Shown: piece after piece, positions 1 through 39,576 of the stretch
Numbering within the stretch: position 1 is the first letter of the stretch
Layout: each line of letters starts with the position of its first letter
Source: Bacteroidales bacterium
GTDB taxonomy: Bacteria; Bacteroidota; Bacteroidia; Bacteroidales; UBA932
Assembly (NCBI GenBank): GCA_017546585.1
Contig: JAFYWC010000111.1
Coordinates: forward strand, 1 to 39,576
Direction of reading: 5' to 3'
Length of the DNA: 39,576 nucleotides
Position numbers and translations under genes: made by a program
The notes under the pieces: model-generated
What the model was told of the DNA's origin: nothing
What the model saw: the letters and a program-made list of their open reading frames with translations, nothing else
The model's database searches: none

Positions 1-1
1 G

Positions 2-268
2 ACGGTAGTTATTGCTCCTGCAGCAACAGACACGTTGGCAATACCTTCTATGGAATATTCGTTGTGTCTTCAGAATGCCGAAGAAGTCGGTATATCTCAC
101 GAGAACCAATTATTGGTCAGCCTCAAGAAGGGAGTTGACAAATTCTTTACAGATTACGACTACGAGGAGTTTGAGTATACCTTTAAGGTAGATGGTCAGA
201 CGTGGACAGAAGACAGATTGTGGCCAAGATATAGATATCATATCACAAATGAAATGATAAACCGCTAA
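2..268 (+). CDS. C-terminal part of an unidentified protein (cut by window edge)
   Basis: The frame is open from base 2, with no start codon needed, and ends at TAA 266-268, so this is the 3' end of a gene that begins outside the window. A TTG at 35 is possible but not convincing as a start. About 88 residues are visible. They are polar and rich in acidic and aromatic residues (a DYDYEEFEYTF stretch, then a W/R-rich end). I see no signal peptide, membrane segment or known motif, and I do not recognise the family. It is followed by a hairpin-bearing repeat (286-365) that may act as its terminator. Confidence 0.5.
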   Translation, partial: TVVIAPAATDTLAIPSMEYSLCLQNAEEVGISHENQLLVSLKKGVDKFFTDYDYEEFEYTFKVDGQTWTEDRLWPRYRYHITNEMINR

Positions 269-285
269 TCTTGTTTCATTTTTGA

Positions 286-365
286 GCGACAGCTAATCCT
301 TTGAAAATAAGGTGTTTACATAGTGAAGGTGACTAAAAAGTCTTAAAGACTGATTAGTCACCTTC
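286..365 (+). repeat. Intergenic palindromic repeat, copy A (degenerate head, nested hairpin)
   Basis: A head-like GCGACAGCTAA at 286-296 is followed by a spacer nearly identical to that of copy B (shared AATAAGGTGTTTACATAG). Then comes a hairpin with perfect 12-bp arms, GAAGGTGACTAA (325-336) and TTAGTCACCTTC (354-365). The loop holds a second inner hairpin (AGTCTT/AAGACT). Spacer identity with copy B but a different stem sequence suggests a family with a conserved frame and an exchangeable hairpin. It could also terminate the upstream gene. Confidence 0.6.
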
Positions 366-380
366 ATCGTTATTTTGTAA

Positions 381-659
381 ATGTGTAACATTGCTGTCCG
401 GAACTTTTACCGGACAGCAATGAGAGAATATGATAAAGGAACAGCAAAACTATCAGCCAGGATGGATGTAAAGGGAGGCTATAAAAAAGAAGATTCTATT
501 GATATCGAGCTTTGTGGAAGTTTTGAATATTGTTTTGAGGATCAAAATAGAGATTGTGGAACGTTATTGTTACGCTATTATGAAAATCCAGAAAAGAATC
601 TTACCTTTACAAACTACGATTCATATATTACAATCAGTGAAATAGATGACAATAATTAG
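381..659 (+). CDS. Small hypothetical protein, start uncertain, possible gene fragment
   Basis: This is an open frame of 92 codons to TAG 657-659. The 5' end is doubtful. The first ATG (381) lies just before, and the second (420) inside, a perfect hairpin, and neither has a ribosome-binding site. A third in-frame Met near 462 is also possible. The protein is soluble-looking and charged, with no signal peptide, membrane segment or motif I recognise. The hairpin over the start and the AT-rich surroundings suggest either a remnant of a larger gene or a short accessory gene. It could also be non-coding. Confidence 0.35.
   Translation: MCNIAVRNFYRTAMREYDKGTAKLSARMDVKGGYKKEDSIDIELCGSFEYCFEDQNRDCGTLLLRYYENPEKNLTFTNYDSYITISEIDDNN
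389..422 (+). repeat. Perfect inverted repeat (13-bp arms) at the 5' edge of a small ORF
   Basis: CATTGCTGTCCGG (389-401) and CCGGACAGCAATG (410-422) are exact reverse complements around an 8-nt loop. The element lies just after repeat A. The ATG at 420 is inside the right arm, so translation from it would be occluded in RNA. It may be a terminator-like hairpin or a remnant of another repeat. Confidence 0.65.
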
Positions 660-689
660 TTTGCTGTAGAATTAAAAACTTCAAGAGAT

Positions 690-1202
690 ATGAAACGGAT
701 TATTTTGGTAGTTATGGCATTCGTGATGGCAGTGTCTGCCTCTTATGCTCAGAACTTTGCAGACAAGAAGGGCTATCAGGGAAATGTGGAACTGGAACTG
801 GGATATATAACAGGGACCAATGCCTTCGACAGCGCAATATTGACCACTCACGGTTACAGCACAGGAAACGGTTGGTTCTTTGGTGCGGGAACAGGTCTGC
901 GTATAACACCGAATCATCACGCTATTGTTTCCATCCCTTTTTATGCAGATGTGAGATACTCATTCTGCAATGGATATGTACGTCCGTTTGTGGATATGAA
1001 GTTGGGAACAGAAATGAATGTAGAGGAGGTTACAGCTGGCCTATACTTGTCGCCATCCATAGGTGTAATGATCAACCGTTATTCTATTTCTCTGAAATAT
1101 GGCTACAGCAACGGATACACCTCATATATGAGTTCCAATAAATTAGTTGGATACCAATATGATACTCACGCGATCAGCGTTGGCTTGGCAGTAAGTTTCT
1201 GA
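690..1202 (+). CDS. Small outer-membrane beta-barrel-like protein
   Basis: The protein has 170 residues. An N-terminal signal peptide (charged KR, hydrophobic core, A-S-A-S-Y-A-Q site near residue 21) is followed by alternating hydrophobic/polar strands with many Gly and aromatic residues. The last strand ends in ISVGLAVSF, with the terminal Phe typical of outer-membrane barrels assembled by BAM. Length and layout fit a small 8-stranded OmpA/OmpW-like porin-type barrel, but I cannot name a family. The start ATG at 690 has an AAGAGA stretch just upstream. The gene stands alone, followed by two hairpin repeats. Function unknown. Confidence 0.7.
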   Translation: MKRIILVVMAFVMAVSASYAQNFADKKGYQGNVELELGYITGTNAFDSAILTTHGYSTGNGWFFGAGTGLRITPNHHAIVSIPFYADVRYSFCNGYVRPFVDMKLGTEMNVEEVTAGLYLSPSIGVMINRYSISLKYGYSNGYTSYMSSNKLVGYQYDTHAISVGLAVSF

Positions 1203-1218
1203 TGAACACTAATTTGAA

Positions 1219-1327
1219 GTGTGGCGGTTAACGCTTTGAGAATAAGGTGTTTACATAGTTGAGGGTCGGTAAAAATACCGACCCTCAATCATTTAACATA
1301 TTGAATAACAGTATTTTAGCTGCCACA
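1219..1327 (+). repeat. Intergenic palindromic repeat, copy B
   Basis: The head GTGTGGCGGTTAA (1219-1231) and tail TTAGCTGCCACA (1316-1327) are inverted repeats with two mismatches (both G-T type). Between them is a perfect 13-bp hairpin, TTGAGGGTCGGTA (1259-1271) and TACCGACCCTCAA (1276-1288), with an AAAA loop. The same hairpin recurs about 37 kb away in the copies flanking the HUH transposase (38025-38050 and 39307-39334). Placed after 690-1202, it may also terminate transcription. Confidence 0.75.
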
Positions 1328-1342
1328 TTGTGGTTGGAAGAA

Positions 1343-3638: not shown

Positions 3639-3645
3639 ATTATAA

Positions 3646-18008: not shown

Positions 18009-18086
18009 ATCTAGTATGTTGATTTATCGTTCGGATGGTATCGTAGGTCAGTGGTTATCGTAATGTTTTACCCGGCTGAATTTTGT

Positions 18087-19388: not shown

Positions 19389-19434
19389 AGTGCTGAAAAT
19401 GTGCTTTTTAAATTATGTGTGGTGTAGTGTGGTG

Positions 19435-19464
19435 CAAAAGTACGCAAATTCTTGCAATTTCCAA
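19435..19464 (-). promoter_or_regulatory. Bacteroidota-type promoter of the ten-gene operon
   Basis: On the minus strand TTG (19464-19462) is followed by a 19-bp spacer and TACTTTTG (19442-19435), matching the TTG-N19-21-TAnnTTTG consensus of the primary Bacteroides sigma factor. Transcription would begin near 19428, leaving a leader of about 40 nt before the MFS gene. It overlaps the divergent promoter by about 13 bp. Confidence 0.7.
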
Positions 19465-19483
19465 GACAATTTTATTATTTTTG
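19452..19483 (+). promoter_or_regulatory. Bacteroidota-type promoter of the divergent glycosidase operon
   Basis: TTG at 19452-19454, a 21-bp spacer and TATTTTTG at 19476-19483 fit the -33/-7 consensus. The start site would fall near 19490, about 26 nt before the ATG at 19516. The promoter is interleaved with the minus-strand promoter, so one regulator bound here could control both arms of the locus. Confidence 0.65.
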
Positions 19484-21147: not shown

Positions 21148-21150
21148 CAT

Positions 21151-23166: not shown

Positions 23167-23180
23167 CCGGAATCCTTCAT

Positions 23181-23269
23181 ACTTTACGAAACCCAAGGTC
23201 GACCGTGTTTTGTAAAGTGGTGTAAAACAGACGATTACGTTATTGTAGGTGGGCGAAAATGCCCACCTA
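23181..23269 (+). repeat. Two hairpins downstream of the GH127 gene (repeat copy D / terminator)
   Basis: Hairpin 1: ACTTTAC...(23181-23194) pairs with ...GTAAAGT (23205-23218) around a loop containing GGTCGACC. Hairpin 2: TAGGTGGGC (23246-23254) and GCCCACCTA (23261-23269) are perfect around GAAAAT. The second has the same design (pyrimidine/purine stem, A-rich loop, following GTGCTGATA) as the other copies of the family, but lacks the GTGTGGC head. It likely also ends the first two-gene transcript. Confidence 0.55.
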
Positions 23270-23315
23270 TGTGCTGATAAAACCTTGATAGTTAATAATA
23301 TACAAAACACGCAAA

Positions 23316-24206: not shown

Positions 24207-24395
24207 ATATCTCGACTTCGCTCGATATGACATTCACACTGTCATCTGGACTGACAGTTGACTTTTCGCTGTCATTTGACTGATGGTAGACTTTTGGATT
24301 GTCATTTGACTGATGGTAAACTTTTGGATTGTCATTTGACTGATGGTAGACTTTTGGATTGTCATTTCGACTGAGCGTAGCGAATGGAGAAATCT
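24205..24395 (+). repeat. REP-like elements in inverted pair enclosing four 30-bp tandem repeats
   Basis: A first palindromic element in minus orientation (24205-24232; minus reading starts TGTCATATCGAGCG) is followed by four 30-bp units at 24241, 24271, 24301 and 24331. The first unit is degenerate; the last three differ by at most one base. A second full element follows in plus orientation (24361-24395, starting GTCATTTCGACTGAGCG, ending GGAGAAATCT). Every 30-bp unit begins with GTCAT, the same end as the element. The array fills most of the gap before the GH3 gene. Confidence 0.85.
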
Positions 24396-24400
24396 TTTAG

Positions 24401-24408
24401 TATATTTG
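24401..24408 (+). promoter_or_regulatory. Candidate -7 element of the GH3 operon
   Basis: TATATTTG matches TAnnTTTG, six bases after the end of a REP-like element. A start near 24415 would give a leader of about 28 nt. No TTG lies at the expected -33 position, which falls inside the REP-like sequence, so the promoter may be weak or activator-dependent. Confidence 0.5.
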
Positions 24409-24442
24409 CACGATTGACCGAATAATCAATAACACTTCCGAT

Positions 24443-26680: not shown

Positions 26681-26686
26681 TCTGAA

Positions 26687-27541
26687 ATGAAGAAAGGATT
26701 CATATTTATGCTGCTGGCAGTGCTTATGGCACTGCCGCAGTTGTCTGATGCCAAGAAGAAGCAGGATCAGCCTGACGAACTCAAGGTGATGTCTTACAAC
26801 ATCCGCCTCGGTTCGGCAAAGGACGGCACAAACGCCTGGATGTACAGATATCCGGCTACTGCGATGATGATCGAGGACCAGATGCCTGACGTATTCGGCG
26901 TACAGGAGGCCCTCGACTATCAGGTGAAGTTCATAGATGAATACTGCAAGGACTACGATTGCGTAGGAGTAGGCAGAGAGGACGGAAAGAAGTCCGGTGA
27001 GCATATGTCTATCTTCTGGAACAAGAAGACCGTGAAGATGCTCAAATGGGGCACATTCTGGCTTTCAGAGACTCCTGAGAAGCCTTCTATGGGTTGGGAT
27101 GCCGCTTGCTACAGAACAGCCACCTGGGCCCTTATGAAGGACAAGAAGACAGGAAAACACTTCTATTTCGTGAACACACATCTGGATCACGTCGGCGTTG
27201 AGGCACGCAGGAACGGCCTCAAACTCATCGTGGACAGAATCGCGAAGATCAACCCTGAAGGCTATCCTATGGTGCTTACAGGAGATTTCAATGTGAAGCC
27301 TACAGATCCAGCTCTCGCTGAACTTGACACAATGATGGATTCGGCCCGAAAGATCGCTGAGGCTACAGACAACCACAATACTTTCAACGGCTGGGGCAAG
27401 GCCAAGAAGGATGATGTCATCGACTACATTTATGTCTCTGGCTTCACAGCTTGTCCTGAATATCAGACAGTGACCAAGAAGTACAACGACCGTGCTTTCG
27501 TTTCCGATCACTTCCCGATCTTCGCCCGCCTTATCTTCTAG
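26687..27541 (+). CDS. Secreted endonuclease/exonuclease/phosphatase-family protein
   Basis: The protein has 284 residues with an N-terminal signal peptide (MKKGFIFMLLAVLMALPQLSDA). The conserved metal-dependent hydrolase motifs are intact: MSYN38IR, VQE74A, NTHLDHVG, LTGDFNVKPTDPAL, DYIYV and SDHFPIFARL. Family members hydrolyse phosphodiester or phosphomonoester bonds in nucleic acids, inositides or lipids; in glycan loci their substrate is usually unknown. Co-transcription with the GH3, near a phosphodiester glycosidase, supports a phosphorylated or phosphodiester-linked substrate, though this is inference. It ends just before a strong bidirectional hairpin. Confidence 0.85.
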   Translation: MKKGFIFMLLAVLMALPQLSDAKKKQDQPDELKVMSYNIRLGSAKDGTNAWMYRYPATAMMIEDQMPDVFGVQEALDYQVKFIDEYCKDYDCVGVGREDGKKSGEHMSIFWNKKTVKMLKWGTFWLSETPEKPSMGWDAACYRTATWALMKDKKTGKHFYFVNTHLDHVGVEARRNGLKLIVDRIAKINPEGYPMVLTGDFNVKPTDPALAELDTMMDSARKIAEATDNHNTFNGWGKAKKDDVIDYIYVSGFTACPEYQTVTKKYNDRAFVSDHFPIFARLIF

Positions 27542-27582
27542 CTGTTTTACCTGACGCTTAATATGCTCAGTGTTAGTAACTT

Positions 27583-27659
27583 ACACAAACCGCGTGCTCC
27601 CTTTTGGCAGCACGCGGTTTGTGTGTTGTATTGATAATCAAATAGTTGCCCGCCAGGCG
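27583..27659. terminator. Bidirectional hairpin between convergent genes (repeat copy E)
   Basis: The 15-bp arms ACACAAACCGCGTGC (27583-27597) and GCACGCGGTTTGTGT (27610-27624) are perfect. The element separates the EEP gene (plus) and dnaE (minus). A CCCGCCAGGCG at 27649-27659 corresponds, read on the other strand, to the GTGGCGG-type head of the repeat family. Read on the minus strand, the loop GCCAAAAGGGAG and stem match copy C at 1382-1413. Confidence 0.7.
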
Positions 27660-27672
27660 AAGCTGGAGGAGG

Positions 27673-30600
27673 CTATTTCTTGATGACGGAGTAGCGGATT
27701 CCGAGGGCCTGGAGTTCTTCGATGAACGGTTGGGTCACCTGCACCTTGAACTTCTGCGAGAGGAACTCGATGTTCCATTTCTTCACAGGATCGTAGATGA
27801 ACATTGTGAGCGGAACGTTACCCTTGTTGTTCTTCACCAGCTTCACCAGCTTTTCGCGGAAGTCCGGCGACAGCATAGGTGTGGTCACAGTAATAGAGAA
27901 TCCCTTGATGTAGAGGTCAGAAACATTGCCCAGCAGCATCATACTCTTAGGTTTGAATGCGTACTCTACCTCCTTTCCTTTAGCCCTGTCTTCCGGTTTG
28001 ATGTAGTACTTCTCCTCGATCATACCCTCGACGAAGATAGCTGTACTCAACTTCTCGTACTGCATAAAGGTCTCGTGGTCCTTGCCGAAGAAAGCGAACT
28101 CATAACTTCCGCCGTAGTCCTCGATAGTCATCCTGGACATAGGACGTCCGGTCTTTGTCAGACCGTCCGATACGGCTGTGATGAATCCGGCCACATTGAC
28201 CTTCATCTTGGTCTTCTTGGCGCTGCATTCCGCCACGAGCGAAGGAATGTCGCTCAACTGGCAGGTCGTGAAGTTCTCCATCTCGAAAGCGAAGGTATCC
28301 AGAGGATGCGACGAGAGGTACATTCCCACGAGTTCCTTCTCATATTTGAGCTTCTCCATAATGTCCTCATCACCCACCATCTCAGGAATCTCCGGTCTTT
28401 CAGGCTTCATCTCCTCGGCATCGCCGAAGAGTGACACTGTGCTTTCCAGAGTGTCCTTCTTATAGAGTTCTCCATAGCGGAGGATTGTGTCAAGGAAGGT
28501 CTCGCCGCTCTTGCAAGGAAGCGAGAACTGCTTGCGACAGAGGCCGAAGCTGTCGAACGCTCCCGAGTGAAGAAGGGCCTCGAATCCCTTTCTGTTCACT
28601 ACACCCGACATTCTCTCCACAAAGTCGTAGATGTCCGCGAACGGACCGTTTTCCTCGCGGTCTGCAAGGATTGCCTTCACGATGTTCTCGCCGAATCCCT
28701 TGATTCCGCCCAAGCCGAATCGGATCTCGCCCTGCTTGTTTACAGTGAACTTCGACTCTGACTCGTTGATATCAGGATTCAGAACCTTGATGCCGTTCTT
28801 CTTGCAGTCATCCATAATCTTCTTGATCTCATCCATATTGGAGAGATTCTTCGTAAGGTTGGCTGCCTGGAACTCGGCAGGGTAGTGGGCCTTGAGCCAT
28901 CCTGTCTGGTAGCTCACCCACGCATAGCAGGTCGCGTGCGACTTGTTGAACGCATATGACGCGAACTTCTCCCAGTCTGCCCAGATCTTCTCGAGCATAT
29001 CCTGAGGGTGGCCGTTCTTTGTACCTCCTTCGATGAAGAGGCCCTTGAGGCTGTCCAGCACGTCCTTGAGCTTCTTACCCATCGCCTTACGGAGGGTATC
29101 CGCCTGGCCTCGGGTGAAGTCTGCAAGCTTACGCGACAGAAGCATCACCTGCTCCTGGTATACTGTAATTCCGTATGTGTCCTGAAGTGTATCCTCCATC
29201 TCCGGAAGGTCGTAGACGATAGGCTGACGGCCCTGCTTGCGCTCTACGAAGTCAGGAATATAGTCCATTGGGCCCGGACGATAGAGGGCGTTCATCGCAA
29301 TGAGGTCCTCGAATCGTGTAGGCTGGAGCTTGATGAGCCACTCCTTCATACCAGGCGACTCGAACTGGAACACGCTGGTAGTGTCTCCGCGGCTGTAAAG
29401 CTCATATGTAAGAGGATCGTTGATGTCGATCTGCTCGATGTCGAATTCGATGCCGTGGCGCTTCTTGATGTTAGCCTGGCATTCCTTGATGATGGACAGG
29501 GTTCTAAGGCCCAGGAAGTCCATCTTGAGCATACCCACCTCCTCGATGTAGTGGCCGTCGTACTGCGACACCCACACCTCCTCGCCTGTAAGCTTGTCGT
29601 TGGCGATGGAAATAGGAATATATTCGGTGAGGTTGCTTCGTCCGATGATCATCGCACAGGCGTGCACACCGGTCTGGCGGATGCAGCCCTCAAGCTTGCC
29701 CGCATATGTAAGCACGTCTCTGGTGAGCTCGTTGCCGTTCTCCAGCTCTTCGTGGAGTTCGCCGTACTTGAGGCAGTTGCCGAGCTTTGGCTTGAACTCC
29801 TTGGTCACCTTCTTGCCGTCCTCCACTACAGTGGCCTCGAAAGGCTTGTCCGGAACCATCTTGGTGAGTCTGTTGGACTCGTCGATGGACATACGGCTCA
29901 CACGTGCAACGTCCTTGATGGCCGATTTCGCAGCCATTGTACCGTATGTGATCACGTGAGATATCTGCTCCTTGCCGTATTTCTCCTCGATGTACTGGAA
30001 CACGCGATAACGTCCGTCGTCGTCGAAGTCGATGTCGACATCGGGCATATTGATACGGTCAGGGTTGAGGAATCGCTCGAAGAGGAGGTCGTACTTGATA
30101 GGGTCGATATTGGTGATCTTCAAGCAGTATGCAACTGCGGATCCTGCAGCCGAACCACGGCCGGGACCTACGGAAATGCCCTCTGAACGCGCTGCAGCGA
30201 TGAAGTCCTGGACGATAAGGAAGTAGTCCGGGAATCCCATACTGCAGATGGTCTTGAGCTCGAACTCGATGCGCTCAGCCTGCTCGTCTGAAAGAGTGTC
30301 GCCGTATCTCCTGTGTGCACCTTTATATGTAAGGTGGCAGAGATATGCTACCGAGCGGCAGAACTCCTCGCCGCGCTCGTTTCCCTTCGGGTCGCAGCGG
30401 CCGGCGTCGATGATATGCTTATATTTCTCAAGATATTCGTCTATGTTGGCAAGGAACTCCTCCGGAAGGTCGAACTTTGGAAGGATTGGGTCCTTGTCCA
30501 CCTTGAAACTGTCGATCTTCTCAGCGACCTCGAGGGTGTTGCTGAGGGTCTCCGGATGCTTGTAGAATATGTCCAGCATTTCCTCCTCGCTCTTGAGGTA

Positions 30601-31356
30601 CTCCTGCTGGGTATAGCGCATACGGTCCGGATCGTCAAGGTTTGCGTTTGTGGTAAGGCAGATGAGTCGGTCGTGTGCCGGTCCGTCCTCCTTGCGCACG
30701 AAGTGCACGTCGTTCGTAGCCACGACCTTCGTTCCGGTCTTCTCCGCAAGCGCGAAGATGCCCTCGTTCACAACCACCTGGTGCTCGTACACCTCCTGTG
30801 ACTGGCCCGGAATCTGGGTCTTGTGCTCCTGCACTTCAAGGTAGAAGTCCTCTCCGAAGACCTTCTTGTGCCACTCGATCGCCTTTTCAGCACCGGACAT
30901 ATCGCCGGCGATGATGTTTCTGGCAACCTCGCCCGCGATGCAGGCAGAACAGCATACCAGATCCTGCGAATACTGCTCCACGATTTCGTGGGACACACGC
31001 GGCTTGTCATAGTATTTGCCCTCGATATGTCCTGTGGAAACGATCTTCATCAGGTTCTTGTAGCCGTTGTAGTTCTTGGCCAGAAGAATGAGGTGGAAAT
31101 AGCCCCTGTGGTCCTTGTCCTTGATCTTGTGGTCATAATGCTTGGTCACATAGATCTCGCAACCGATGATCGGCTTCACCTCCGGGAACTTCTTCGCCAC
31201 CTTCAGGAATTCCTTCACACCGTACATATTTCCGTGGTCTGTGATCGCAAGTGCCGGCATACCAAGCTCTTTGGCTCTTTCGAAAAGGCCGGCAATCGAC
31301 GCCTGACCGTCGAGAATCGAATACTGTGTGTGGACGTGAAGATGGACGAATGACAT
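27673..31356 (-). CDS. dnaE: DNA polymerase III subunit alpha
   Basis: The protein has 1227 residues from ATG 31356; the frame is open further upstream, but the PHP domain starts right here (FVHLHVHTQYSILDG) and the promoter at 31385-31415 would lie inside a longer gene. The PHP domain (1-280) has ITDHGNMYG. The polymerase core has VGPGRGSAAGSAVAYCL and the catalytic PDVDIDFDDDGR (two of the three Asp), followed by thumb and finger motifs such as TGVHACAMI and YRPGPMDYIP. The C-terminus carries the helix-hairpin-helix and OB regions (MKVNVAGFITAVSD). This is the replicative polymerase, a core chromosomal gene. It is transcribed from its own promoter downstream of the secDF terminator. Confidence 0.96.
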   Translation of the reverse strand: MSFVHLHVHTQYSILDGQASIAGLFERAKELGMPALAITDHGNMYGVKEFLKVAKKFPEVKPIIGCEIYVTKHYDHKIKDKDHRGYFHLILLAKNYNGYKNLMKIVSTGHIEGKYYDKPRVSHEIVEQYSQDLVCCSACIAGEVARNIIAGDMSGAEKAIEWHKKVFGEDFYLEVQEHKTQIPGQSQEVYEHQVVVNEGIFALAEKTGTKVVATNDVHFVRKEDGPAHDRLICLTTNANLDDPDRMRYTQQEYLKSEEEMLDIFYKHPETLSNTLEVAEKIDSFKVDKDPILPKFDLPEEFLANIDEYLEKYKHIIDAGRCDPKGNERGEEFCRSVAYLCHLTYKGAHRRYGDTLSDEQAERIEFELKTICSMGFPDYFLIVQDFIAAARSEGISVGPGRGSAAGSAVAYCLKITNIDPIKYDLLFERFLNPDRINMPDVDIDFDDDGRYRVFQYIEEKYGKEQISHVITYGTMAAKSAIKDVARVSRMSIDESNRLTKMVPDKPFEATVVEDGKKVTKEFKPKLGNCLKYGELHEELENGNELTRDVLTYAGKLEGCIRQTGVHACAMIIGRSNLTEYIPISIANDKLTGEEVWVSQYDGHYIEEVGMLKMDFLGLRTLSIIKECQANIKKRHGIEFDIEQIDINDPLTYELYSRGDTTSVFQFESPGMKEWLIKLQPTRFEDLIAMNALYRPGPMDYIPDFVERKQGRQPIVYDLPEMEDTLQDTYGITVYQEQVMLLSRKLADFTRGQADTLRKAMGKKLKDVLDSLKGLFIEGGTKNGHPQDMLEKIWADWEKFASYAFNKSHATCYAWVSYQTGWLKAHYPAEFQAANLTKNLSNMDEIKKIMDDCKKNGIKVLNPDINESESKFTVNKQGEIRFGLGGIKGFGENIVKAILADREENGPFADIYDFVERMSGVVNRKGFEALLHSGAFDSFGLCRKQFSLPCKSGETFLDTILRYGELYKKDTLESTVSLFGDAEEMKPERPEIPEMVGDEDIMEKLKYEKELVGMYLSSHPLDTFAFEMENFTTCQLSDIPSLVAECSAKKTKMKVNVAGFITAVSDGLTKTGRPMSRMTIEDYGGSYEFAFFGKDHETFMQYEKLSTAIFVEGMIEEKYYIKPEDRAKGKEVEYAFKPKSMMLLGNVSDLYIKGFSITVTTPMLSPDFREKLVKLVKNNKGNVPLTMFIYDPVKKWNIEFLSQKFKVQVTQPFIEELQALGIRYSVIKK

Positions 31357-31384
31357 ATGGGCTATATTATATATGAAAGGGGAA

Positions 31385-31415
31385 CAAAGATACAAAAAAC
31401 AGAGCGACCCGTCAA
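31385..31415 (-). promoter_or_regulatory. dnaE promoter overlapping the secDF terminator
   Basis: On the minus strand TTG (31415-31413), a 20-bp spacer and TATCTTTG (31392-31385) match the Bacteroidota consensus. The TTG is in the loop of the upstream terminator hairpin, and the U-tract falls in the spacer. The start site would be near 31378, about 22 nt before the ATG. Confidence 0.7.
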
Positions 31416-31425
31416 GGTCGCTCTG
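31394..31425 (-). terminator. Rho-independent terminator of secDF
   Basis: On the minus strand CAGAGCGACC (31425-31416) and GGTCGCTCTG (31409-31400) form a perfect 10-bp stem with a 6-nt loop, followed by six T (31399-31394). It lies 23 nt after the secDF stop codon and is the most classical terminator in the window. Confidence 0.88.
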
Positions 31426-31448
31426 CATATTTAGGTATTTGAAGTATC

Positions 31449-34400
31449 TTACTTCTGAGCCTTCTTCTCAGCTCTCTTTGTAACGTCGTACATAATAGGA
31501 GTTGCGATGAAGATTGAAGCGTAGGTACCGATGATGATACCGAGGATCAATGCTACAGCAAGACCTCTGATCACCTCACCACCGAAGATTGCAATTGCAA
31601 GCATTGTAACGAGAGTAGTGAGTGATGTGTTCATTGTACGTGAGAGAGTGCTGTTGAGAGCCGCGTTCACGTTCTGCTTGAAGTCAGCCTTAGGGTGAAG
31701 AGTCTTGTACTCACGGATACGGTCGAAGATAACCACTGTATCGTTGATAGCGTAACCGATGATAGTCAGGATCGCAGCGATGAATGTCTGGTCGATATCA
31801 AGGCTGAATGGAAGGATGCCTGAGAAGAGTGAGAAGAATCCGATCACGATGAGTGCTGTATGTGCAAGACCTACAACACCACCAAGTCCCCAAGTCCATC
31901 CCTTGAAACGTACAGCGATGTAACCGAAGATCACGATGAGTGCGAGGATTACAGCGATGAATGCGTCTCTTGTGATGTCGTTGGCGATAGTAGGACCTAC
32001 CTTGTCAGAGCTGATGATACCGTTAGGGTTCTCCTGAGTTGAAGTGAAGTCCTCGAGAGAGAGCTCGTTAGCATAGAAGCCCTTGAGTGACTCGTAAAGG
32101 ATACCCTCTACCTCTGTATCAACCTCAGCAGCCTCGTTCTCTACCTTGTAAGTAGTAGTGATCTTGATCTGGCTCTCACCACCGAACTGCTTAACCTCGG
32201 CAGCAGCATTGTCAACAGTCTCGTCGTTTGCAGCAGCAGCGTCGAATGCGTTGTTTACAGCAACACGTACAGCCTCAACGTCAGCCGGCTGGTCGAATCT
32301 TACAACATATGTACGTCCACCAGTGAAGTCAACACCGTATGAGAAGCCCTTGATTCCGATTGAAAGAACCGAGATAAGGATGAGCGCACCTGAAAGGATG
32401 TAAGCGATCTTCTTCTTGCCGATGAAGTCTACGTGAGTGTTCTGGAGGAAGTTTCTAGTGAACTTGTTGTCGAAAGTGATGTTCTTGCCCTTCTCCACTC
32501 TGTCGTCGAAGATCATTCTTGTGATGAAGATTGATGTAACGATAGAAGTGATGATACCGATGATCAAAGTAGTAGCGAAGCCCTGTACAGGACCTGAACC
32601 GAATACGAAGAGAACGATACCTGTAAGGAGGGTAGTGATCTGACCGTCGATGATAGCTGAGTAAGCGTTTGAGTAACCGTCAGCGATAGCCTTTCCGAGA
32701 CCCTTGCCTGCGCGGAGCTCTTCCTTCACGCGCTCATAGATGATCACGTTAGCGTCCACTGCCATACCGAGAGTCAACACGAGACCTGCGATACCAGGGA
32801 GAGTGAGGACTGCACCGAATGAAACGAGTGTACCGAAGAGGAGAACTACGTTGCAGAGGAGAGCGATGTCAGCTACGAGACCTGCGCCTGCGTAGAAGAC
32901 GATCATATAGATGAGGACGAGTACGAATGCGAGGATGAATGAAATCATACCTGCGTTGATTGACTCGGCTCCGAGTGATGGTCCTACAACCTGCTCCTGG
33001 ATGATGGTAGCCGGTGCAGGGAGCTTACCTGACTTGAGGACGTTTGCAAGGTCCTCAGCCTCCTCGATTGTGAAGTTACCTGTGATTGATGAGTTACCAC
33101 CCTCGATCTTGCCGTTTACTACTGGATAAGAGTAAACCATACCGTCGAGAACGATAGCGATCTGCTTGCCGATGTTGTCGCCTGTGAGTCTTGCCCAGAT
33201 ACCTGCGCCCTCACCGTTCATTGCCATAGACACCTCAGGTGATCCGCCGGTGTTGCCGAACTGTACGCGTGCGTCAGCTACGTAACCTCCGTCGAGCGGT
33301 GCTCTTCCGTCAGCAGATACTGACTTGATTGCTACGAGCTCGAAGTAGTTCTCGTTAAGCTGTGATGGCTTTACAGACCACATCGGCTTGAACTCTGCAG
33401 GGAAGATCATCTTTACCTGCGGCATTGCGAAGTACTTGTTGATCTTTGATGTGTCAGCATAGTGAGCGTAGCCGAGGCAAGCGCCCTTGTACTGTGCTGG
33501 CTGGAGTACAGCGAAGAGTGGGTTGTTCTTCATCCACTGTGCCTCTGCGAGAGCCTCTTCCTTGTTCTGCTGGAGCTCAGCTGCGAGGAGGTCGTCCTCT
33601 GCAGTCTCAGCCTCTGCAACAACCTCTACAGCCTCCTCAGCCTCAAGGCTTGCGAGGAATGCGTTAGCCTCCTGGAGGAATCCCTGGAGCTCAGTGTTGT
33701 CGTAAGTAGGCCAGAACTCGAGTGATGCAGTACCCTGGAGGAGCTTTCTTACACGCTCTGGCTCCTTTACACCTGGAAGCTCTACGAGGATACGTCCGCT
33801 GTTTCCGAGCTTCTGGATGTTTGGCTGTGTCACACCGAAACGGTCGATACGGTTTCTGAGGACGTTGAATGAGTTTGCGATTGCGCTCTCAGCCTCTGCT
33901 CTGATAACCTCGATAACCTCAGCGTCAGTTGACTCTGGGCCGATCTTGCCGACCATATCGAATGTGCCGAACACCTGTGCGAGAGGCATACCGTTTGAAG
34001 TCTCCTTCCAAGCCTCTGCGAAGAGAGTGATGAAGTCCTGGCGTGAATCCACGCTGTTCTTCTTTGCGAGTGCGATCGCGTTCTGGAACTCTGCTGTCTG
34101 GTTGTTGTCAGCAAGAGCCTTCACGAGGTCCTCGAGCTGTACCTGAAGCATAACGTTCATACCACCCTTAAGGTCGAGACCAAGGTTGATTGCCTTTGCC
34201 TTGATGTCCTTGTAAGTGTATCCGAAGTAGATCTTCTCGGATGAAATGGAATCAATGTACATTCTGTTCTCAACCTTTCTGATAGAGTCGAGGTAGAATG
34301 CCTTGTCCATATCTGCCACTTTCTCGAAAGCGGCTGACTGCTCTGCAGCGATGACCTTAGCCTCAGCATACTTCTCAGCCTTCTTCTCCTGCATATTTGT

Positions 34401-34481
34401 CACAAGAGTGAATGAAAGCTGCCAGAGTGATGCGAGAGCGAGAAGCACCGCTACAAATCTGATAGCACCTTTACTTTGCAT
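31449..34481 (-). CDS. secDF: Protein translocase subunit SecDF (fused)
   Basis: The protein has 1010 residues. The N-terminal membrane anchor (about 8-30) is followed by the SecD LGLDLKGGMN motif near residue 105 and a periplasmic P1 domain. Five membrane helices (about 520-660) follow, then the SecF half with its own N-terminal helix (about 690-710), the GVDFTGGRTYVVRF motif and five further helices to the Lys-rich end. Fusion of SecD and SecF in one chain is common in Bacteroidota. It uses the proton motive force to help pull exported proteins through SecYEG. A Glu/Ala-rich insertion around 275-310 (EEAVEVVAEAETAEDD) lies in the P1 region. It is a single gene with its own terminator. Confidence 0.96.
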   Translation of the reverse strand: MQSKGAIRFVAVLLALASLWQLSFTLVTNMQEKKAEKYAEAKVIAAEQSAAFEKVADMDKAFYLDSIRKVENRMYIDSISSEKIYFGYTYKDIKAKAINLGLDLKGGMNVMLQVQLEDLVKALADNNQTAEFQNAIALAKKNSVDSRQDFITLFAEAWKETSNGMPLAQVFGTFDMVGKIGPESTDAEVIEVIRAEAESAIANSFNVLRNRIDRFGVTQPNIQKLGNSGRILVELPGVKEPERVRKLLQGTASLEFWPTYDNTELQGFLQEANAFLASLEAEEAVEVVAEAETAEDDLLAAELQQNKEEALAEAQWMKNNPLFAVLQPAQYKGACLGYAHYADTSKINKYFAMPQVKMIFPAEFKPMWSVKPSQLNENYFELVAIKSVSADGRAPLDGGYVADARVQFGNTGGSPEVSMAMNGEGAGIWARLTGDNIGKQIAIVLDGMVYSYPVVNGKIEGGNSSITGNFTIEEAEDLANVLKSGKLPAPATIIQEQVVGPSLGAESINAGMISFILAFVLVLIYMIVFYAGAGLVADIALLCNVVLLFGTLVSFGAVLTLPGIAGLVLTLGMAVDANVIIYERVKEELRAGKGLGKAIADGYSNAYSAIIDGQITTLLTGIVLFVFGSGPVQGFATTLIIGIITSIVTSIFITRMIFDDRVEKGKNITFDNKFTRNFLQNTHVDFIGKKKIAYILSGALILISVLSIGIKGFSYGVDFTGGRTYVVRFDQPADVEAVRVAVNNAFDAAAANDETVDNAAAEVKQFGGESQIKITTTYKVENEAAEVDTEVEGILYESLKGFYANELSLEDFTSTQENPNGIISSDKVGPTIANDITRDAFIAVILALIVIFGYIAVRFKGWTWGLGGVVGLAHTALIVIGFFSLFSGILPFSLDIDQTFIAAILTIIGYAINDTVVIFDRIREYKTLHPKADFKQNVNAALNSTLSRTMNTSLTTLVTMLAIAIFGGEVIRGLAVALILGIIIGTYASIFIATPIMYDVTKRAEKKAQK

Positions 34482-34533
34482 AATTTTTATTGATTTTAAT
34501 GTTATTTGATTTCTTCGAACGCAAATAAGGGCA

Positions 34534-34611
34534 CAAATTTACGATTTTTTTCGGATATACGAAGAAACTGGCACGTTTTCTCCTCTGTTTATTTAAAAAT
34601 TTATAAATTTG
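34534..34611. promoter_or_regulatory. Divergent promoter region, secDF / SPOR gene
   Basis: The 142-bp gap holds a minus-strand TAAATTTG (34541-34534) for secDF and a plus-strand TAAATTTG (34604-34611) for the gene at 34624. Both match TAnnTTTG, but neither has a clean TTG at -33. A plus start near 34618 would leave a very short leader of about 6 nt. Confidence 0.45.
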
Positions 34612-34623
34612 TAAATTGAATAA

Positions 34624-36504
34624 ATGTCGAAAATAGAGATGTCAAGAGGCAAAACCTTGCTATATATTTTGATTTCAGCGCTTTTCGCTGTTTCAACAGG
34701 ACATCCGGCAGCCGCACAGACTGACAGTCTTGTGCTCTCCGGTGATGCCCTGCGCAAGGCATATCGTTTCGAGGAATCCCTCGATGCCTATGACCAGGCT
34801 CTGGACTATGCTTTAGAAGCCGGCGACGAGGCCCTGGCGGATCTCGTCCGTGATAGGTCTGTGCTTTCGGAAAACGGACGCAATATGTCCCGTTTCGTAC
34901 AGAAGCCGACAGTAATCGCGAAGCGCCTTTTCTCCCTCGATGAATTCTTCCTTTACTACCCGCTTGAAGACAGGAGCTGGAGGGCTCTTCCGAATCCTCT
35001 CGACTCGTCTTCGACAGAGAGTCTTGTGCGTGCGCTTTTTGCTCCTGACTGGAATGATGTGATCTATTTTTCTACCCAGGGCGATGAGGGAGTGAGAAAT
35101 CTCTATGTCACTGAGCAGCAAGATACTGTGTGGTCTGTTCCGCTTCTTATGGAAAAGCAGTCGACAGCGTCTTCTGATGAGATTTATCCTATGCTTTCAC
35201 CTGACGGAAAGACACTGTATTTCGCGTCGAAGGGTTTCTATGGTGTAGGTGGTTATGACCTTTACAAATCGGTGTTTGACGAGGCTGCCCAGACCTGGTC
35301 TACGCCTCAGAATATGGGCTTCCCGTACTCGTCTCCTGCGGACGATTTCCTCTATGTGGAGTCGGAGGACGGAGAGTATGCGGTGTTTGCTTCGAACAGA
35401 GAGTGTTCACCTGACAGCGTGTGGGTGTATGTGCTTCAGTATGAGGATTATCCTGTACACTCTGCCGTGACAGACCCTGGCGAATTGCTCGCGCTTTCGC
35501 GCCTCGACCCTCCGGTGTCAGAAGTCAAGAAGGACAAGGCTGATATGCCTCATAGTACGCTGACTCTCAGTTATATGGAGAAGATGGGCGAAGTTCGCTC
35601 GTTAAGGGATTCGATAGATGCACACAATGCTGCTCTGGAGGCGCTCCGTATGGATTTTGCGTTCAGCAATGATGCGGAAGAGAGAATGCGCCTGACTCAG
35701 CAGATCCTCGGTCTTGAGACCGGAATACCTTCGCTGCTCAAGGCTCTTGAGGGTGCTAATTCCGAGTTGAGGGACATCGAGATGGAGTTCAGAAGAGAGG
35801 GTGTCTTCATCACTTCCGACTTTGGTGAGGAGGATGAAGAGACAGACCTTCCGGAGTACACATTCCGCAAGATGTCGATGGGCGATCCGCTTGACATAAA
35901 GGTGCTCGAGCCTGAAGTGAAGTTCGACTACACATTCCAGATCCTTCCGGAGGCGCAGTTTGCTGAGGATCAGTCTATTCCGTCTGGAGTCATCTATCAG
36001 ATACAGTTGTTCAGCGGCGGTCGCAAGGCACTTCCTGCTGAACTCAAGGGCCTCAGCCCTATATATGAACACCGCACACCTTCGGGTATGTACACATACA
36101 GAGTGGGGCGCTTCGAGGCGTATGAGGATGCTCTTGCAAATGTAGACAAGGTCAGAGCCCGCGGTTTCAGAAGTGCATACATCACTGCGTTCATTGATGG
36201 CGAGGTCGTTTCAGTAAGCGCGGCGAGAACAGCCGAGGCGAAGGCCAAGAATGTGATGCTGATGTATGAGGTGAGGATTATGCCGGAGACGGGCGAACTC
36301 GATAGAGAGGTCGTCGAAGGCATCGTGACTTTGGCGCTTGGAAAGGATATCGCACGAGTTGAGGCCGAGGACGGTACACAGGTGTTCATCGTGGGTCCGT
36401 TCGACGACAAGACCCAGGCTGAAAATCTGGTGGACTTTGTGAAGTCAAAAGGATCAGCCAAGGTGACCTGCGAACTTCTCGGAAATGAAATCATTGTAGA
36501 GTAA
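34624..36504 (+). CDS. Envelope protein with PD40 beta-propeller repeats, coiled coil and SPOR-like domains
   Basis: The protein has 626 residues. A signal peptide (LLYILISALFAVSTGHPAAAQ) is followed by a short TPR-like helix pair (about 38-75). WD40-like PD40 repeats (about 130-270) include YPMLSPDGKTLYFASKGFYGVGGYDLY and DDFLYVESEDGEYAVFASNR. A coiled-coil region (about 320-385) precedes two C-terminal SPOR-like units (about 452-530 and 540-626; VIYQIQLFSGGRK..., YTYRVGRFEAYEDALANVDKVRARGF). SPOR domains bind denuded peptidoglycan. In Bacteroidota similar PD40/SPOR proteins attach to gliding or envelope complexes, but no exact role is known here. The gene precedes nfeD-like and floA with a 10-bp gap, so an envelope-organisation role is plausible. 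Confidence 0.75.
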   Translation: MSKIEMSRGKTLLYILISALFAVSTGHPAAAQTDSLVLSGDALRKAYRFEESLDAYDQALDYALEAGDEALADLVRDRSVLSENGRNMSRFVQKPTVIAKRLFSLDEFFLYYPLEDRSWRALPNPLDSSSTESLVRALFAPDWNDVIYFSTQGDEGVRNLYVTEQQDTVWSVPLLMEKQSTASSDEIYPMLSPDGKTLYFASKGFYGVGGYDLYKSVFDEAAQTWSTPQNMGFPYSSPADDFLYVESEDGEYAVFASNRECSPDSVWVYVLQYEDYPVHSAVTDPGELLALSRLDPPVSEVKKDKADMPHSTLTLSYMEKMGEVRSLRDSIDAHNAALEALRMDFAFSNDAEERMRLTQQILGLETGIPSLLKALEGANSELRDIEMEFRREGVFITSDFGEEDEETDLPEYTFRKMSMGDPLDIKVLEPEVKFDYTFQILPEAQFAEDQSIPSGVIYQIQLFSGGRKALPAELKGLSPIYEHRTPSGMYTYRVGRFEAYEDALANVDKVRARGFRSAYITAFIDGEVVSVSAARTAEAKAKNVMLMYEVRIMPETGELDREVVEGIVTLALGKDIARVEAEDGTQVFIVGPFDDKTQAENLVDFVKSKGSAKVTCELLGNEIIVE

Positions 36505-36514
36505 TATATAGCGT

Positions 36515-36973
36515 ATGGGATTGATAATCACATTGATATTGGTCGGACTTGTGCTGATCTTCGCTGAGATCCTTCTTATACCGGGAGTCGGTGTGGCAGG
36601 TATTCTCGGACTGCTTTCTATGGGTGGTTCGTGCTATTATGCATTCACTGAGATGGGCGCTACGGCAGGTGCTGTCGTCACTGCTGTGAACGCCGTCCTC
36701 ATTGTCGCACTTACAGTCTGGGTGCTCAGGGCAAAGACCTGGAAGAGACTCACTCTCAACACCAATATCGAGTCAAAGGCGGTGGTGCTTTCCGCACCTG
36801 TCGCTGCCGGCGACACCGGCCGTGCGCTCACAAGGCTCGCGCCGATGGGAACAGCCCGTTTCGGCAATGATACATTCGAAGTGACAGCGATGGAAGGCCT
36901 GATCGATCCGGGCGCAGATGTCGAAGTCGTTTCTGTGGAAGGAATAAAGATTTATGTAAAACAAATAAACTGA
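36515..36973 (+). CDS. NfeD-like membrane protein
   Basis: The protein has 152 residues. It has a hydrophobic N-terminal half with about three membrane segments (residues 1-20, 24-45 and 50-70; [28 protein letters not shown]) and a C-terminal OB-fold domain (about 95-150: [48 protein letters not shown]). This is the short NfeD form without the N-terminal protease domain. It is almost always next to a flotillin-like gene, as here, with floA starting 5 bp downstream. NfeD and FloA are thought to work together in membrane-microdomain organisation. Confidence 0.88.
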
Positions 36974-36977
36974 TACT

Positions 36978-37931
36978 ATGGACACAATGATTATCGTTTG
37001 GATTGCAGTCGCTATTGTAGGACTTGTGGTCTTCCTCTGGTTCTTCCCTGTGACCCTTTGGTTCCAGGCTCTGATCTCCGGAGTACGTGTTTCACTTATT
37101 CAGCTTGTCCTGATGCGTTGGAGAGGTGTTTCTCCAAGCACTATCGTTATGGCGATGGTGACAGGAACAAAGGCTGGCCTTACTCTTTATGCCAATGAGC
37201 TCGAGGCTCACTACCTTGCAAAGGGAAATGTTCCTAAGGTCGTGAATGCCCTTATTTCAGCAGACAAGGCAAATATCTCCCTTGATTTCAAGATGGCTGC
37301 TGCTATCGACCTCGCTGGTCGTGACGTATTCGAGGCTGTCCAGATGTCAGTAAATCCTAAGGTGATCAACACTCCTCCTGTGACTGCGGTTGCAAAGGAC
37401 GGTATCCAGCTCATCGCAAAGGCTCGTGTTACTGTACGTGCGAACATCAAGCAGCTCGTCGGTGGTGCCGGTGAAGAGACTGTTCTCGCCCGCGTAGGTG
37501 AGGGTATCGTATCGTCTATCGGTTCTGCAGAGAGCCACAAGCTCGTTCTCGAGAATCCTGACAGCATATCGAAGGTGGTGCTCAACAAGGGCCTTGACGC
37601 AGGTACTGCATTTGAGATCCTCTCTATCGACATCGCTGACATCGACATCGGAAAGAACATCGGTGCTGTCCTCCAGATGGACCAGGCAGAGGCTGACAAG
37701 AACATTGCACAGGCTCGCGCTGAGGAGCGCCGCGCAATGGCTGTCGCTCTCGAGCAGGAGATGAAAGCGAAGGCTCAGGAAGCACGCGCACGCGTTATCG
37801 AGGCCGAAGCAGAGGTTCCTCTCGCAATGGCGGAGGCATTCCGCAACGGCAACCTCGGCATTATGGACTACTACAAAATGAAAAACATCCAGGCCGACAC
37901 CGAAATGCGCGAAAACATCGCTAAGCAGTAA
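36978..37931 (+). CDS. floA: Flotillin-like protein FloA
   Basis: The protein has 317 residues. The N-terminal membrane hairpin (about 4-30, [22 protein letters not shown]) is followed by an SPFH-type domain ([53 protein letters not shown]). The C-terminal EA-rich coiled coil ([45 protein letters not shown]) matches FloA (formerly the YqfA/UPF0365 family) across its whole length. It forms detergent-resistant membrane domains that scaffold protein complexes. It is the last gene of the SPOR-nfeD-floA transcript; a repeat hairpin (38025-38050) follows and may terminate it. Confidence 0.95.
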
Positions 37932-37982
37932 TCTGTATAGTCCTGGAATAGGTTTACAGATTATTGAACAATAGTCTTTTAA

Positions 37983-38092
37983 GTGTGGCGGCTAAATAAT
38001 TGAACTATAGCACTTTGCATATTTGAGGGTCGGTATTTTTACCGACCTTCGTTTGTTTAATATGCTGATTGTCAGTAATTTGGCTGCCACAC
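37983..38092 (+). repeat. Intergenic palindromic repeat, copy F (left flank of the HUH transposase)
   Basis: The head GTGTGGCGGCTAA (37983-37995) and tail ending GGCTGCCACAC (38082-38092) form imperfect inverted arms. The inner hairpin is GAGGGTCGGTA (38025-38035) and TACCGACCTTC (38040-38050), with one G-T mismatch and a TTTT loop. The distal spacer includes TATGCTGATTGTCAG with a CTGA/TCAG dyad, shared with copy G. Confidence 0.8.
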
Positions 38093-38197
38093 CCAAAAGC
38101 TATCTTCTGTTTAATGTGTCTGCAGTCAGTGGTTTGTCTGTCACACCAAAGCCTCTCTTTTTAAGGTGTCTGCTGCCAATAAGGAGGTTGCTACACC
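38056..38197 (+). repeat. Three degenerate 38-bp direct repeats of the repeat's right arm
   Basis: Units of exactly 38 bp start at 38056, 38110 and 38160. Each starts TTTAA and ends CACACC or CTACACC; units 1 and 2 agree at 27 of 38 positions by eye. They are separated by 16 and 12 bp. The first is the right arm of copy F; a fourth, weaker copy may start near 38211. This fills the 315-bp gap between floA and the transposase gene, which otherwise shows no coding content. Confidence 0.75.
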
Positions 38198-38245
38198 AAA
38201 CAGCAGTTAGCTTAATATGTGGATAGTTTAGTATGGTGTTTTCAA

Positions 38246-39172
38246 TTAGCGTTTGCTGTGGGAGGTGGCTTGTGGAATGTGGAGAAACTTCCGGATCTGT
38301 GTCCCCGATGCTGATGTCCTGGATTTCAAGACAGAATAAAGTTTCCTTTTCTCGGCCTCAGATGCGACTATGACATTTTGAATTTTTTCCACCCCGGATT
38401 TCTTCAGTATTGAGATTATTTCCCTGTATGGGACATCTGTCTTGCAGTAGTGTCTTTCTGCAATGTCGTACTCGCTTCCTGTGTTTGAGTTTATGGCTTT
38501 GATCATATCGTCATATGATCTGTAATAGCTGTTAGTGGTCTCGACATCAAATGGCAGGTACTTCCAGATGATATATTCAGTGAGCGCCTCCTTTTCATCC
38601 CCGTCAAGTGTCTTGAACAGTTTGTCCAGAAGTGCATATTTCAGGTATAATCCCTTCTGGAACTGCGATTCCACAACCTTTATCGCTCTCCTCATAGCGT
38701 GGGAATATTCCCTCATCTTCTTATGAGGTAATTTGTACTGAGGGTTATAGTAACGGAGAAAACTCCATCGATACCCTTCCGCTTTCGTGCAGAGCATCTT
38801 TTCTACCGGATTGTTGAACAGATATGCGATTGCTGAACGGATCTTCTTGGTCTCCGTTTTCAAAGCGCTTCCAAATGTGGACTCGAAGAGTGGGCCTTTC
38901 CTGCCTGTCCACGAGTTGAACTCTCTTACGAACAAAGAAGTGTACTCCGATATGAACCGGCTGATCTGACTTATGTCTCCTCCGGTCAGCAGAAGATGAA
39001 TGTGATCAATCATCAGACACAATCCTAAAAGATTGATCTTGAACTTCCTTGCCTTGATTGCGATGATCGTATAGAAGACCAGAAAGTCTTCCAAAGAATA
39101 GAAAATGTTGAACCCATAAAGGGTTCTCTGATATACGTGCAGTACTCCGCCAGCACAAAACCTCCTCTTCAT
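38246..39172 (-). CDS. REP-associated-type HUH (Y1) transposase with C-terminal extension
   Basis: The protein has 308 residues from ATG 39172. A TTG at 39202 in frame is rejected because TATATTTG at 39207-39200 would place transcription start downstream of it. The Y1/IS200-like fold shows the HUH motif H57-I-H59 in LMIDHIHLLL and the nucleophile candidate Y117 in AIAYLFNNPVEKML, with correct spacing, so it looks catalytically complete. The FVREFNSW and GPLFESTFGSAL segments match single-copy REP-associated tyrosine transposases (RAYTs). A C-terminal extension (about 165-308) ends in a helix-turn-helix-like SGTQIRKFLHIP. It is flanked by repeat copies F and G in the same orientation and lacks IS200-type TnpB. 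The surrounding DNA is AT-richer than that of the core genes. Confidence 0.85.
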   Translation of the reverse strand: MKRRFCAGGVLHVYQRTLYGFNIFYSLEDFLVFYTIIAIKARKFKINLLGLCLMIDHIHLLLTGGDISQISRFISEYTSLFVREFNSWTGRKGPLFESTFGSALKTETKKIRSAIAYLFNNPVEKMLCTKAEGYRWSFLRYYNPQYKLPHKKMREYSHAMRRAIKVVESQFQKGLYLKYALLDKLFKTLDGDEKEALTEYIIWKYLPFDVETTNSYYRSYDDMIKAINSNTGSEYDIAERHYCKTDVPYREIISILKKSGVEKIQNVIVASEAEKRKLYSVLKSRTSASGTQIRKFLHIPQATSHSKR

Positions 39173-39199
39173 ATCTACTGCATTTAATGTGTACCCTTG

Positions 39200-39207
39200 C
39201 AAATATA
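39200..39207 (-). promoter_or_regulatory. Candidate -7 element of the transposase gene
   Basis: On the minus strand TATATTTG (39207-39200) lies 28 nt before ATG 39172. No clear TTG precedes it at the expected distance, so expression is probably low. Confidence 0.45.
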
Positions 39208-39265
39208 TGTAAAATAGTCAGCCGTCATATACCTTGCCTGAAAAATTTGCACTATTTTTAATTTG

Positions 39266-39377
39266 GTGTGGCAGTTAAAATGCTGATAGTCAGCGTTTTG
39301 ATTGGTTGAGGGTCGGTAAAAATACCGACCCTCATTTGCTCAAACTGCTGATTTTCAACCCTTTAGCTGGAGCCCAC
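39266..39377 (+). repeat. Intergenic palindromic repeat, copy G (right flank of the HUH transposase)
   Basis: The head GTGTGGCAGTTAA (39266-39278), a spacer with TGCTGATAGTCAG, and a perfect 12-bp hairpin TGAGGGTCGGTA (39307-39318) with TACCGACCCTCA (39323-39334) are followed by a degenerate tail (39362-39377, TTTAGCTGG...CCCAC). It has the same orientation and hairpin as copies B and F. Confidence 0.78.
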
Positions 39378-39423
39378 TAAAACCACCCACGACAAGCATC
39401 AGATGAGCATTTTGCAGTTTTAT

Positions 39424-39455
39424 TTGGAGAATCTCTAAATTTATTTATATCTTTG
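39424..39455 (+). promoter_or_regulatory. Promoter of tRNA-Ser
   Basis: TTG (39424-39426), a 21-bp spacer and TATCTTTG (39448-39455) match the consensus. A small hairpin CCCATT/AATGGG (39460-39475) lies between the expected start site and the tRNA. Confidence 0.7.
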
Positions 39456-39484
39456 CAGTCCCATTGGAAAATGGGTCAGTTTTG

Positions 39485-39570
39485 GTGAGATGGGTGAGTG
39501 GCTGAAACCACCAGTTTGCTAAACTGACGTACGGGCAACCGTACCGGGGGTTCGAATCCCCCTCTCACCG
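39485..39570 (+). tRNA. tRNA-Ser (anticodon GCT)
   Basis: The acceptor arms GGTGAGA (39485-39491) and TCTCACC (39563-39569) pair fully, with discriminator G at 39570. The anticodon loop TTTGCTAA gives GCT (serine AGC/AGT codons). A long variable arm (TACGG, GCAA loop, CCGTA) is typical of type II tRNA-Ser, and the T arm GGGGG-TTCGAAT-CCCCC is perfect. CCA is not encoded. The tRNA lies 108 bp beyond the last repeat copy, next to the transposase module. Confidence 0.96.
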
Positions 39571-39576
39571 CAGAAA

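Follow-up and report, generated by a model that had tools for sequence, protein, structure and literature searches.

The window analysed here, a 39,576-nucleotide stretch forming contig JAFYWC010000111.1 of the assembly of a gut Bacteroidales bacterium (GCA_017546585.1) in the genus Ca. Cryptobacteroides, has lost almost every copy of the palindromic tetranucleotide CATG. The word occurs once, at position 16572, where a second-order Markov model expects 163.2 copies (z −17.4) and base composition alone 153.6, and it ranks lowest among all 256 tetranucleotides of the window. This depletion is caused by selection and not by mutation bias. We think it probable that the selection acts against a DNA-cleaving agent whose recognition word is exactly CATG; an orthodox type II restriction-modification system is the likeliest candidate.

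The effect is specific to one word. The next-lowest tetranucleotide of the window is CTAG (6 observed, 53 expected), which is also low in most of 80 relatives' loci, and the remaining 14 palindromes have observed-to-expected ratios of 0.65–1.09. In the native part of the genome, the twelve one-mismatch neighbours of CATG lie at 0.92–1.44, with CATA and TATG mildly raised (1.44 and 1.33). When the 19 main open reading frames (ORFs) of the window were shuffled among synonymous codons 200 times, they contained 131.9 ± 8.6 CATG with a minimum of 111, against one in the real ORFs; the 5,223 bases outside these ORFs, part of them possibly coding or transcribed, contain none against 15.9 expected. 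A preliminary description of the window, made by eye from its letters, had reported this single site, its location in an Ile-Met (ATC-ATG) pair, and a depletion reaching through core genes and intergenic DNA but confined to one palindrome. The programmatic counts agree on the single site and on the extent and specificity of the depletion, the codon pair was seen again by eye, and a profile search confirms the core genes named there (dnaE, secDF, and floA). The same description called the gene with the remaining site an isomerase; that ORF matches no Pfam or NCBIfam model.

Codon choice in the window is shaped accordingly. Histidine before a codon starting with G is written CAC 45 times and CAT never, xCA before TG occurs in none of 74 cases, and a C-ending codon precedes methionine in only 1 of 299 cases, compared with 4,353 of 11,133 (39%) elsewhere, so that the avoidance before ATG proposed from the letters is real. 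One silent change can always remove a CATG (44 of 44 dicodon contexts); this is not what singles the word out, since the same holds for 14 of the 16 palindromes.

The comparison with relatives reveals how the sites were lost. The loci of nine relatives that align to the window contain 482 CATG, and not one of them is kept in the window, although these relatives share ancestry and the sites are not independent; for the five nearest the figure is 0 of 294, while eight control palindromes, pooled over the same five, are kept at rates from 33% (GGCC, 72/217) to 71% (TCGA, 256/362). In the dnaE alignment, none of the 17, 16, and 22 CATG of G026, G024, and G021 survives in the window genome. Escapes by single changes from the five nearest relatives, read as plus-strand letters over genes of both strands, depend on the frame: in CAT|G, 35 of 38 are transitions at the two middle letters; in xCA|TG, 63 of 65 fall on the two middle letters, and 56 of those 63 are transversions; in xxC|ATG, 143 of 144 fall on the two outer letters. 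Most escapes are thus single changes at letters where the genetic code permits silent substitution. In the dnaE codon alignment, read in coding orientation, a single change alters the silent letter almost every time (CAC|G, TATG or GATG, CCTG), with few exceptions, one CATA among them. Because the escapes are frame-dependent and mostly silent, selection is the cause; and because practically all CATG contexts are lost, the recognition specificity looks like the bare four-letter word.

The depletion is genome-wide. The window corresponds to contig 59 of 163 in an assembly of 2.49 Mb and 95.6% completeness that looks like a metagenome bin. The whole assembly contains 90 RYCATGRY, or 36 per Mb, where the reversed control has 389 and the genus median is 332 per Mb; such whole-genome counts take in foreign contigs within bins. 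At the sequence level, 72 stretches (910 kb) were read, and 28 more, all contigs shorter than 3 kb, were read as N. Their observed-to-expected ratios are bimodal: the lowest tenth holds 50 of the 72, with 45 below 0.05, and a second group lies near 0.7–1.0; among the other 27 stretches several are normal throughout (foreign or imported), and contigs at normal CATG from end to end may represent foreign DNA binned with the genome. Unsegmented, the 72 stretches hold 692 CATG against 4,042 expected. A two-state segmentation that includes the window assigns 766 kb to a native part with 26 CATG against about 3,280 expected (ratio about 0.008, partly circular, as the segmentation relies on CATG itself) and 184 kb to an imported or foreign part with 667 against 988. 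Eight of the 26 native sites are on a phage-like contig (three) or within 300 bases of a contig end (five). No 16S gene was found by a motif scan of the stretches read.

Of the imported tracts that lie inside native contigs, the one in C45 encodes transposases and a CotH protein, that in C20 the glycoside hydrolases GH2 and GH20, and that in C85 a peptidase. The C85 tract alone is bordered at each end by more than 3 kb of other DNA, and its flanks are long and CATG-free; for the C20 and C45 tracts the shorter CATG-free flank measures 1.8–2.2 kb in the part read. Another CATG-rich tract, at one end of a native contig (C73), encodes a C5 methylase and a SacI-family nuclease (PF09566, 3.2e-80; L113, 1274–3474) and is likely a recent import.

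Within the genus the trait is patchy. The six nearest relatives by dnaE, at 84–90% protein identity and with 46–55% of compared fourfold sites differing, have CATG ratios of 0.79–0.93, and a somewhat farther relative (L141) has 0.26. These near-normal values, to which the preliminary description had no access, rule out a genus-wide ancestral trait, so the pressure does not extend to the whole genus. Of 400 genus genomes sampled from a larger set, 37 are strongly depleted (fewer than 60 RYCATGRY per Mb), including 11 of the 157 that are at least 90% complete. In a dnaE tree of 83 sequences, built from match pieces, midpoint-rooted, and with a few genomes present twice, 11 tips lie below a ratio of 0.15, which takes a minimum of 9 changes, and 15 tips below 0.3, which takes a minimum of 13; on this tree CATG purges thus arose at least 9–13 times.

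Intermediate states also occur. L145 is fully purged (0 of 102 expected) and its sister L148 half purged (45 of 94); the surviving CATG of L148 are evenly spread and are shared with relatives (68 of 121) as often as in normal genomes (0.43–0.60). L148 is therefore either a purge in progress or one that stopped half-way. In L188, with 7 sites only, survivors are likewise shared (14 of 25) and evenly spread. Recovery after full loss, the other way to reach an intermediate count, is unsupported for both, given the shared and evenly spread survivors. In L141, survivors are shared (29 of 52) but clustered (P 0.014), and those of L180 are clustered as well (P 0.001); imports may explain the surviving sites in these two.

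Indications of an enzyme come from purged relatives. G064 (L160, CATG 3 of 89) and G065 (L161, 2 of 32) carry a cassette of a second methylase, a PF05315 (ICEA) nuclease, and a D12-class N6-adenine methylase (methylase 1), in the order methylase 2–nuclease–methylase 1 wherever the locus is whole; the nuclease, tested on G064, matches at 8.5e-114 and adjoins the D12 methylase. Within the genus PF05315 was found in G064, G065/G145, G208, G365 (where the contig apparently stops within the nuclease), and G405, and the motif DHKDGRK is unchanged across the five nuclease sequences, of which one is a fragment. The search of the 400 genus genomes gave four carriers: G145 (probably the same genome as G065, by coordinates and sequence), G208, G365, and G405, with 38, 40, 7, and 223 RYCATGRY per Mb; three of the four are depleted (Fisher P 0.0027). 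Judged by its nuclease family and the depletion of its carriers, the cassette would cut CATG, and an NCBIfam scan of its proteins named none of them as a CATG enzyme.

The nuclease position of this cassette appears to be exchangeable. Depleted G066 (CATG 2 of 96) has the same two methylases with a different nuclease: its slot (L226, 338–1489) holds an unrelated 384-residue protein, presumably EVE-like, with only weak matches to UPF0310 proteins and, by eye, an IELK stretch resembling a PD-(D/E)XK core. G208 has an intact PF05315 nuclease together with a deletion relic of the G066-type protein (L300, 1180–1486), lying between nuclease and D12 methylase. The swap and the relic suggest that two different nucleases have shared one methylase pair, and make the G066-type protein a candidate CATG nuclease. 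Pattern scans of viral contigs, sensitive to close relatives alone, turned up nothing related to either nuclease, and plasmids gave one partial relative of the PF05315 protein, in Priestia (39% over 57%).

In the window genome itself the candidates that exist do not fit. Three other methylase families (N6_N4, C5, and N6_Mtase) have one match each: on the phage-like contig, beside the SacI-type nuclease on the imported tract, and in a type I system. The SacI-type system of C73 was rejected as the cause because its nuclease belongs to the SacI family and the tract that carries it is rich in CATG; the type I system of C37, because type I restriction sites are not known to be 4-bp palindromes; and the phage methylase on C158, because near-identical viral contigs avoid CATG themselves. 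When the relatives' cassette genes were searched against the 910 kb by tblastn, the only hit was a weak one between methylase 2 and the methylase of the phage contig, and no cognate CATG system was found in 36 genus members searched. The enzyme of the window genome may lie on a plasmid outside the bin or in the short contigs, may have been lost recently, or may be of another kind.

Under the reading that a type II system drives the purge, CATG sites missed by the methylase would sometimes be cut, every new or old CATG would carry a slight fitness cost, and mutations that silently destroy it would be favoured until the word disappears. Self-restriction would be the driving force, and we infer that a CATG system acts in the window species or did so until very recently. 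Several observations weigh against this. Searches of the window genome for PF05315 and for D12 methylases (at 95.6% completeness, with contigs below 3 kb read as N) gave no match; depleted G030, 97% complete, lacks matches to all five families searched (PF05315, D12, N6_N4, C5, N6_Mtase); and 34 of the 37 depleted genus genomes are without PF05315. Conversely, G405 carries the cassette without strong depletion, although its cassette locus still contains 9 CATG against 12.8 expected, which favours the reading, since a recent arrival should look like this. CATG-rich tracts persist inside native contigs (C85, C20, C45), so CATG sites are not simply lethal. Finally, M.HpyI is universal in Helicobacter pylori and CATG is abundant there, though the nuclease can be missing (PMC10423294). 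Of the restriction explanation first put forward, then, the genome-wide extent, the selection, and the cassette in some purged relatives stand; the NlaIII-like pair or orphan methylase to be looked for in the genome itself was not found there by these searches.

The most serious alternative, and still an unlikely one, is that the CATG system has been lost from the lineage and the purged state is its memory. No PF05315/D12 system was found in the sequence of this genome, CATG-rich imports are present in it, and lost systems are known to leave such traces (PMC4687349). By a simple four-letter turnover estimate, however, about 0.1% substitution per site would already bring CATG back neutrally to 0.5%, and any loss must therefore be very recent; residual native CATG stands below 1% of expectation (in a segmentation that itself uses CATG), and in another lineage the half-purged L148 keeps ancestral sites, not new ones.

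Selection at the RNA level, by an endoribonuclease cutting CAUG in mRNA, appears very improbable to us. Strand bias cannot exclude it, CATG being palindromic, and most of the window is coding; the bases outside the ORFs are nevertheless equally empty of the word, purged relatives carry a DNA system of the CATG type, and a phage-like contig avoids CATG too. Mutational loss, by unrepaired deamination to T of a methylated C within CATG, is more remote again. In the xxC|ATG frame C-to-T and G-to-A changes do predominate (111 of 144 escapes), and the raised CATA and TATG are what it would leave, but the escape spectrum contradicts it: the other frames change at A and T, where this can be silent, and in xCA|TG mostly by transversion. 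The sole C5 methylase match in the genome, moreover, is the one adjoining the SacI-type nuclease on the imported tract. An artefact of library, assembly, or binning, such as fragmentation at CATG, might be suspected in a bin of 163 contigs and can practically be dismissed, contradicted as it is by long contigs, by substitutions at the homologous positions, and by bins bearing other isolate series names that look alike (SIG153 0 of 102, SUG1207 2 of 96, RUG12515 1 of 50).

A more far-reaching version of the cleavage reading, which we put forward only tentatively, is that most purged Cryptobacteroides, the window species included, have an undescribed kind of CATG-specific DNA-destroying system outside the five families searched, which repeatedly drives near-total removal of its target. 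In the extreme form, absence of CATG may replace methylation as self-protection, so that a nuclease could persist with no methylase beside it; this form is weakened by the CATG-rich imports that the genome contains.

Some phage DNA avoids CATG as well. Contig 158 of the bin (L081) is phage-like, with pieces of a DnaE-type polymerase, an N6_N4 methylase, and, by eye, helicase- and primase-like replication genes; it has 3 CATG against 40 expected, 2 ACGT against 23, and 14 GATC against 47. Among 26 viral contigs with a related primase, nine at 98–99% identity avoid CATG (ratios 0.08–0.19), eight more distant ones (L311–L318) do not, and the remaining nine vary from 17 of 81 to 64 of 79. This avoidance fits restriction in the host community, with the caveat that these phages avoid several palindromes. 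ACGT is almost absent from contig 158 and the near-identical viral contigs.

The nearest known systems are the type II systems NlaIII and HpyI (IceA1-M.HpyI), whose recognition word is CATG, as we infer here; NlaIII itself we take to be a PF05315 relative, and the cassette of the purged relatives pairs a PF05315 nuclease with a D12 methylase. Two differences stand out: no such system was found in the window genome, and in the Cryptobacteroides cassette the nuclease is preceded by an additional methylase. In H. pylori, M.HpyI occurs in all genomes, the nuclease is sometimes missing, and CATG is the densest motif at 9,036 per Mb (PMC10423294). Avoidance of orthodox type II sites is common, in about half of cases, with frequent traces of lost systems (Rusinov et al. 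2015, PMC4687349). The present case resembles theirs in its palindromic word, selection, recurrence in relatives, and instances without a system in the genome; their avoidance threshold is a ratio of at most 0.78, compared with about 0.008 for native DNA here and 0.79–0.93 for the six nearest relatives. UpaP162 of Ureaplasma parvum is a CATG cutter that its authors could not relate to known nucleases (PMC6191088), and families other than PF05315 may therefore cut CATG. It differs in that the Ureaplasma parvum genome holds 1,450 CATG (PMC6191088). A literature search over titles and abstract openings, which is not proof of absence, gave no report of CATG loss in Ca. Cryptobacteroides.

Restriction-site avoidance as such is well known; what stands out here is its near completeness, its repetition within one genus, and the enzyme not found. 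The genus contains normal species next to half-purged and fully purged ones, a natural experiment on how quickly self-restriction remodels a genome, on the persistence of systems, and on the traces they leave. In a purged genome a CATG-rich tract is a likely recent import, which yields a simple map of gene flow, and new CATG-specific enzymes may be sought in those purged species that have no known CATG system.

Table. Features of the window, in window coordinates.
Feature	Position	Strand	Remark
CATG-purged native background	1..39576	.	1 observed, 163 expected
Polysaccharide-use locus	1494-13686		SusC, SusD, BT_3987-like, DUF4855, and DUF6259 proteins
Sole CATG, ATC-ATG codon pair (read by eye)	16572..16575	.	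near 3' end of minus-strand ORF 16545-18008
CATG-free run, 23 kb	16573..39576	.	contains dnaE, secDF, floA
dnaE, DNA polymerase III alpha	27673..31428	-	basis of comparison with relatives and of species tree
secDF	31449-34481		
floA	36978-37931		
IS200-like (Y1) transposase ORF	38246-39202		without CATG

The IS200-like transposase ORF is either old in the genome or came from a CATG-free source. Near-absence of a palindrome is also seen for other words in other Bacteroidales loci: CCGG (0 of 42, L217), GGCC (0 of 40, L218), AGCT (2 of 33, L144), ACGT (5 of 36, L196), and GATC (6 of 111, L206, Phocaeicola barnesiae). G016 and G013 (L026, L027) have a D12 plus N6_N4 methylase pair, which we assume to be DpnII-like, and near-normal GATC at dnaE (33 of 41 and 25 of 35). 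G019, G018, and G022 (L030, L036, L049) are GATC-poor (10 of 28, 13 of 35, and 6 of 26) and without a D12 methylase; G009 has a D12 methylase and is GATC-poor all the same (13 of 35), against a simple rule linking methylase and GATC.

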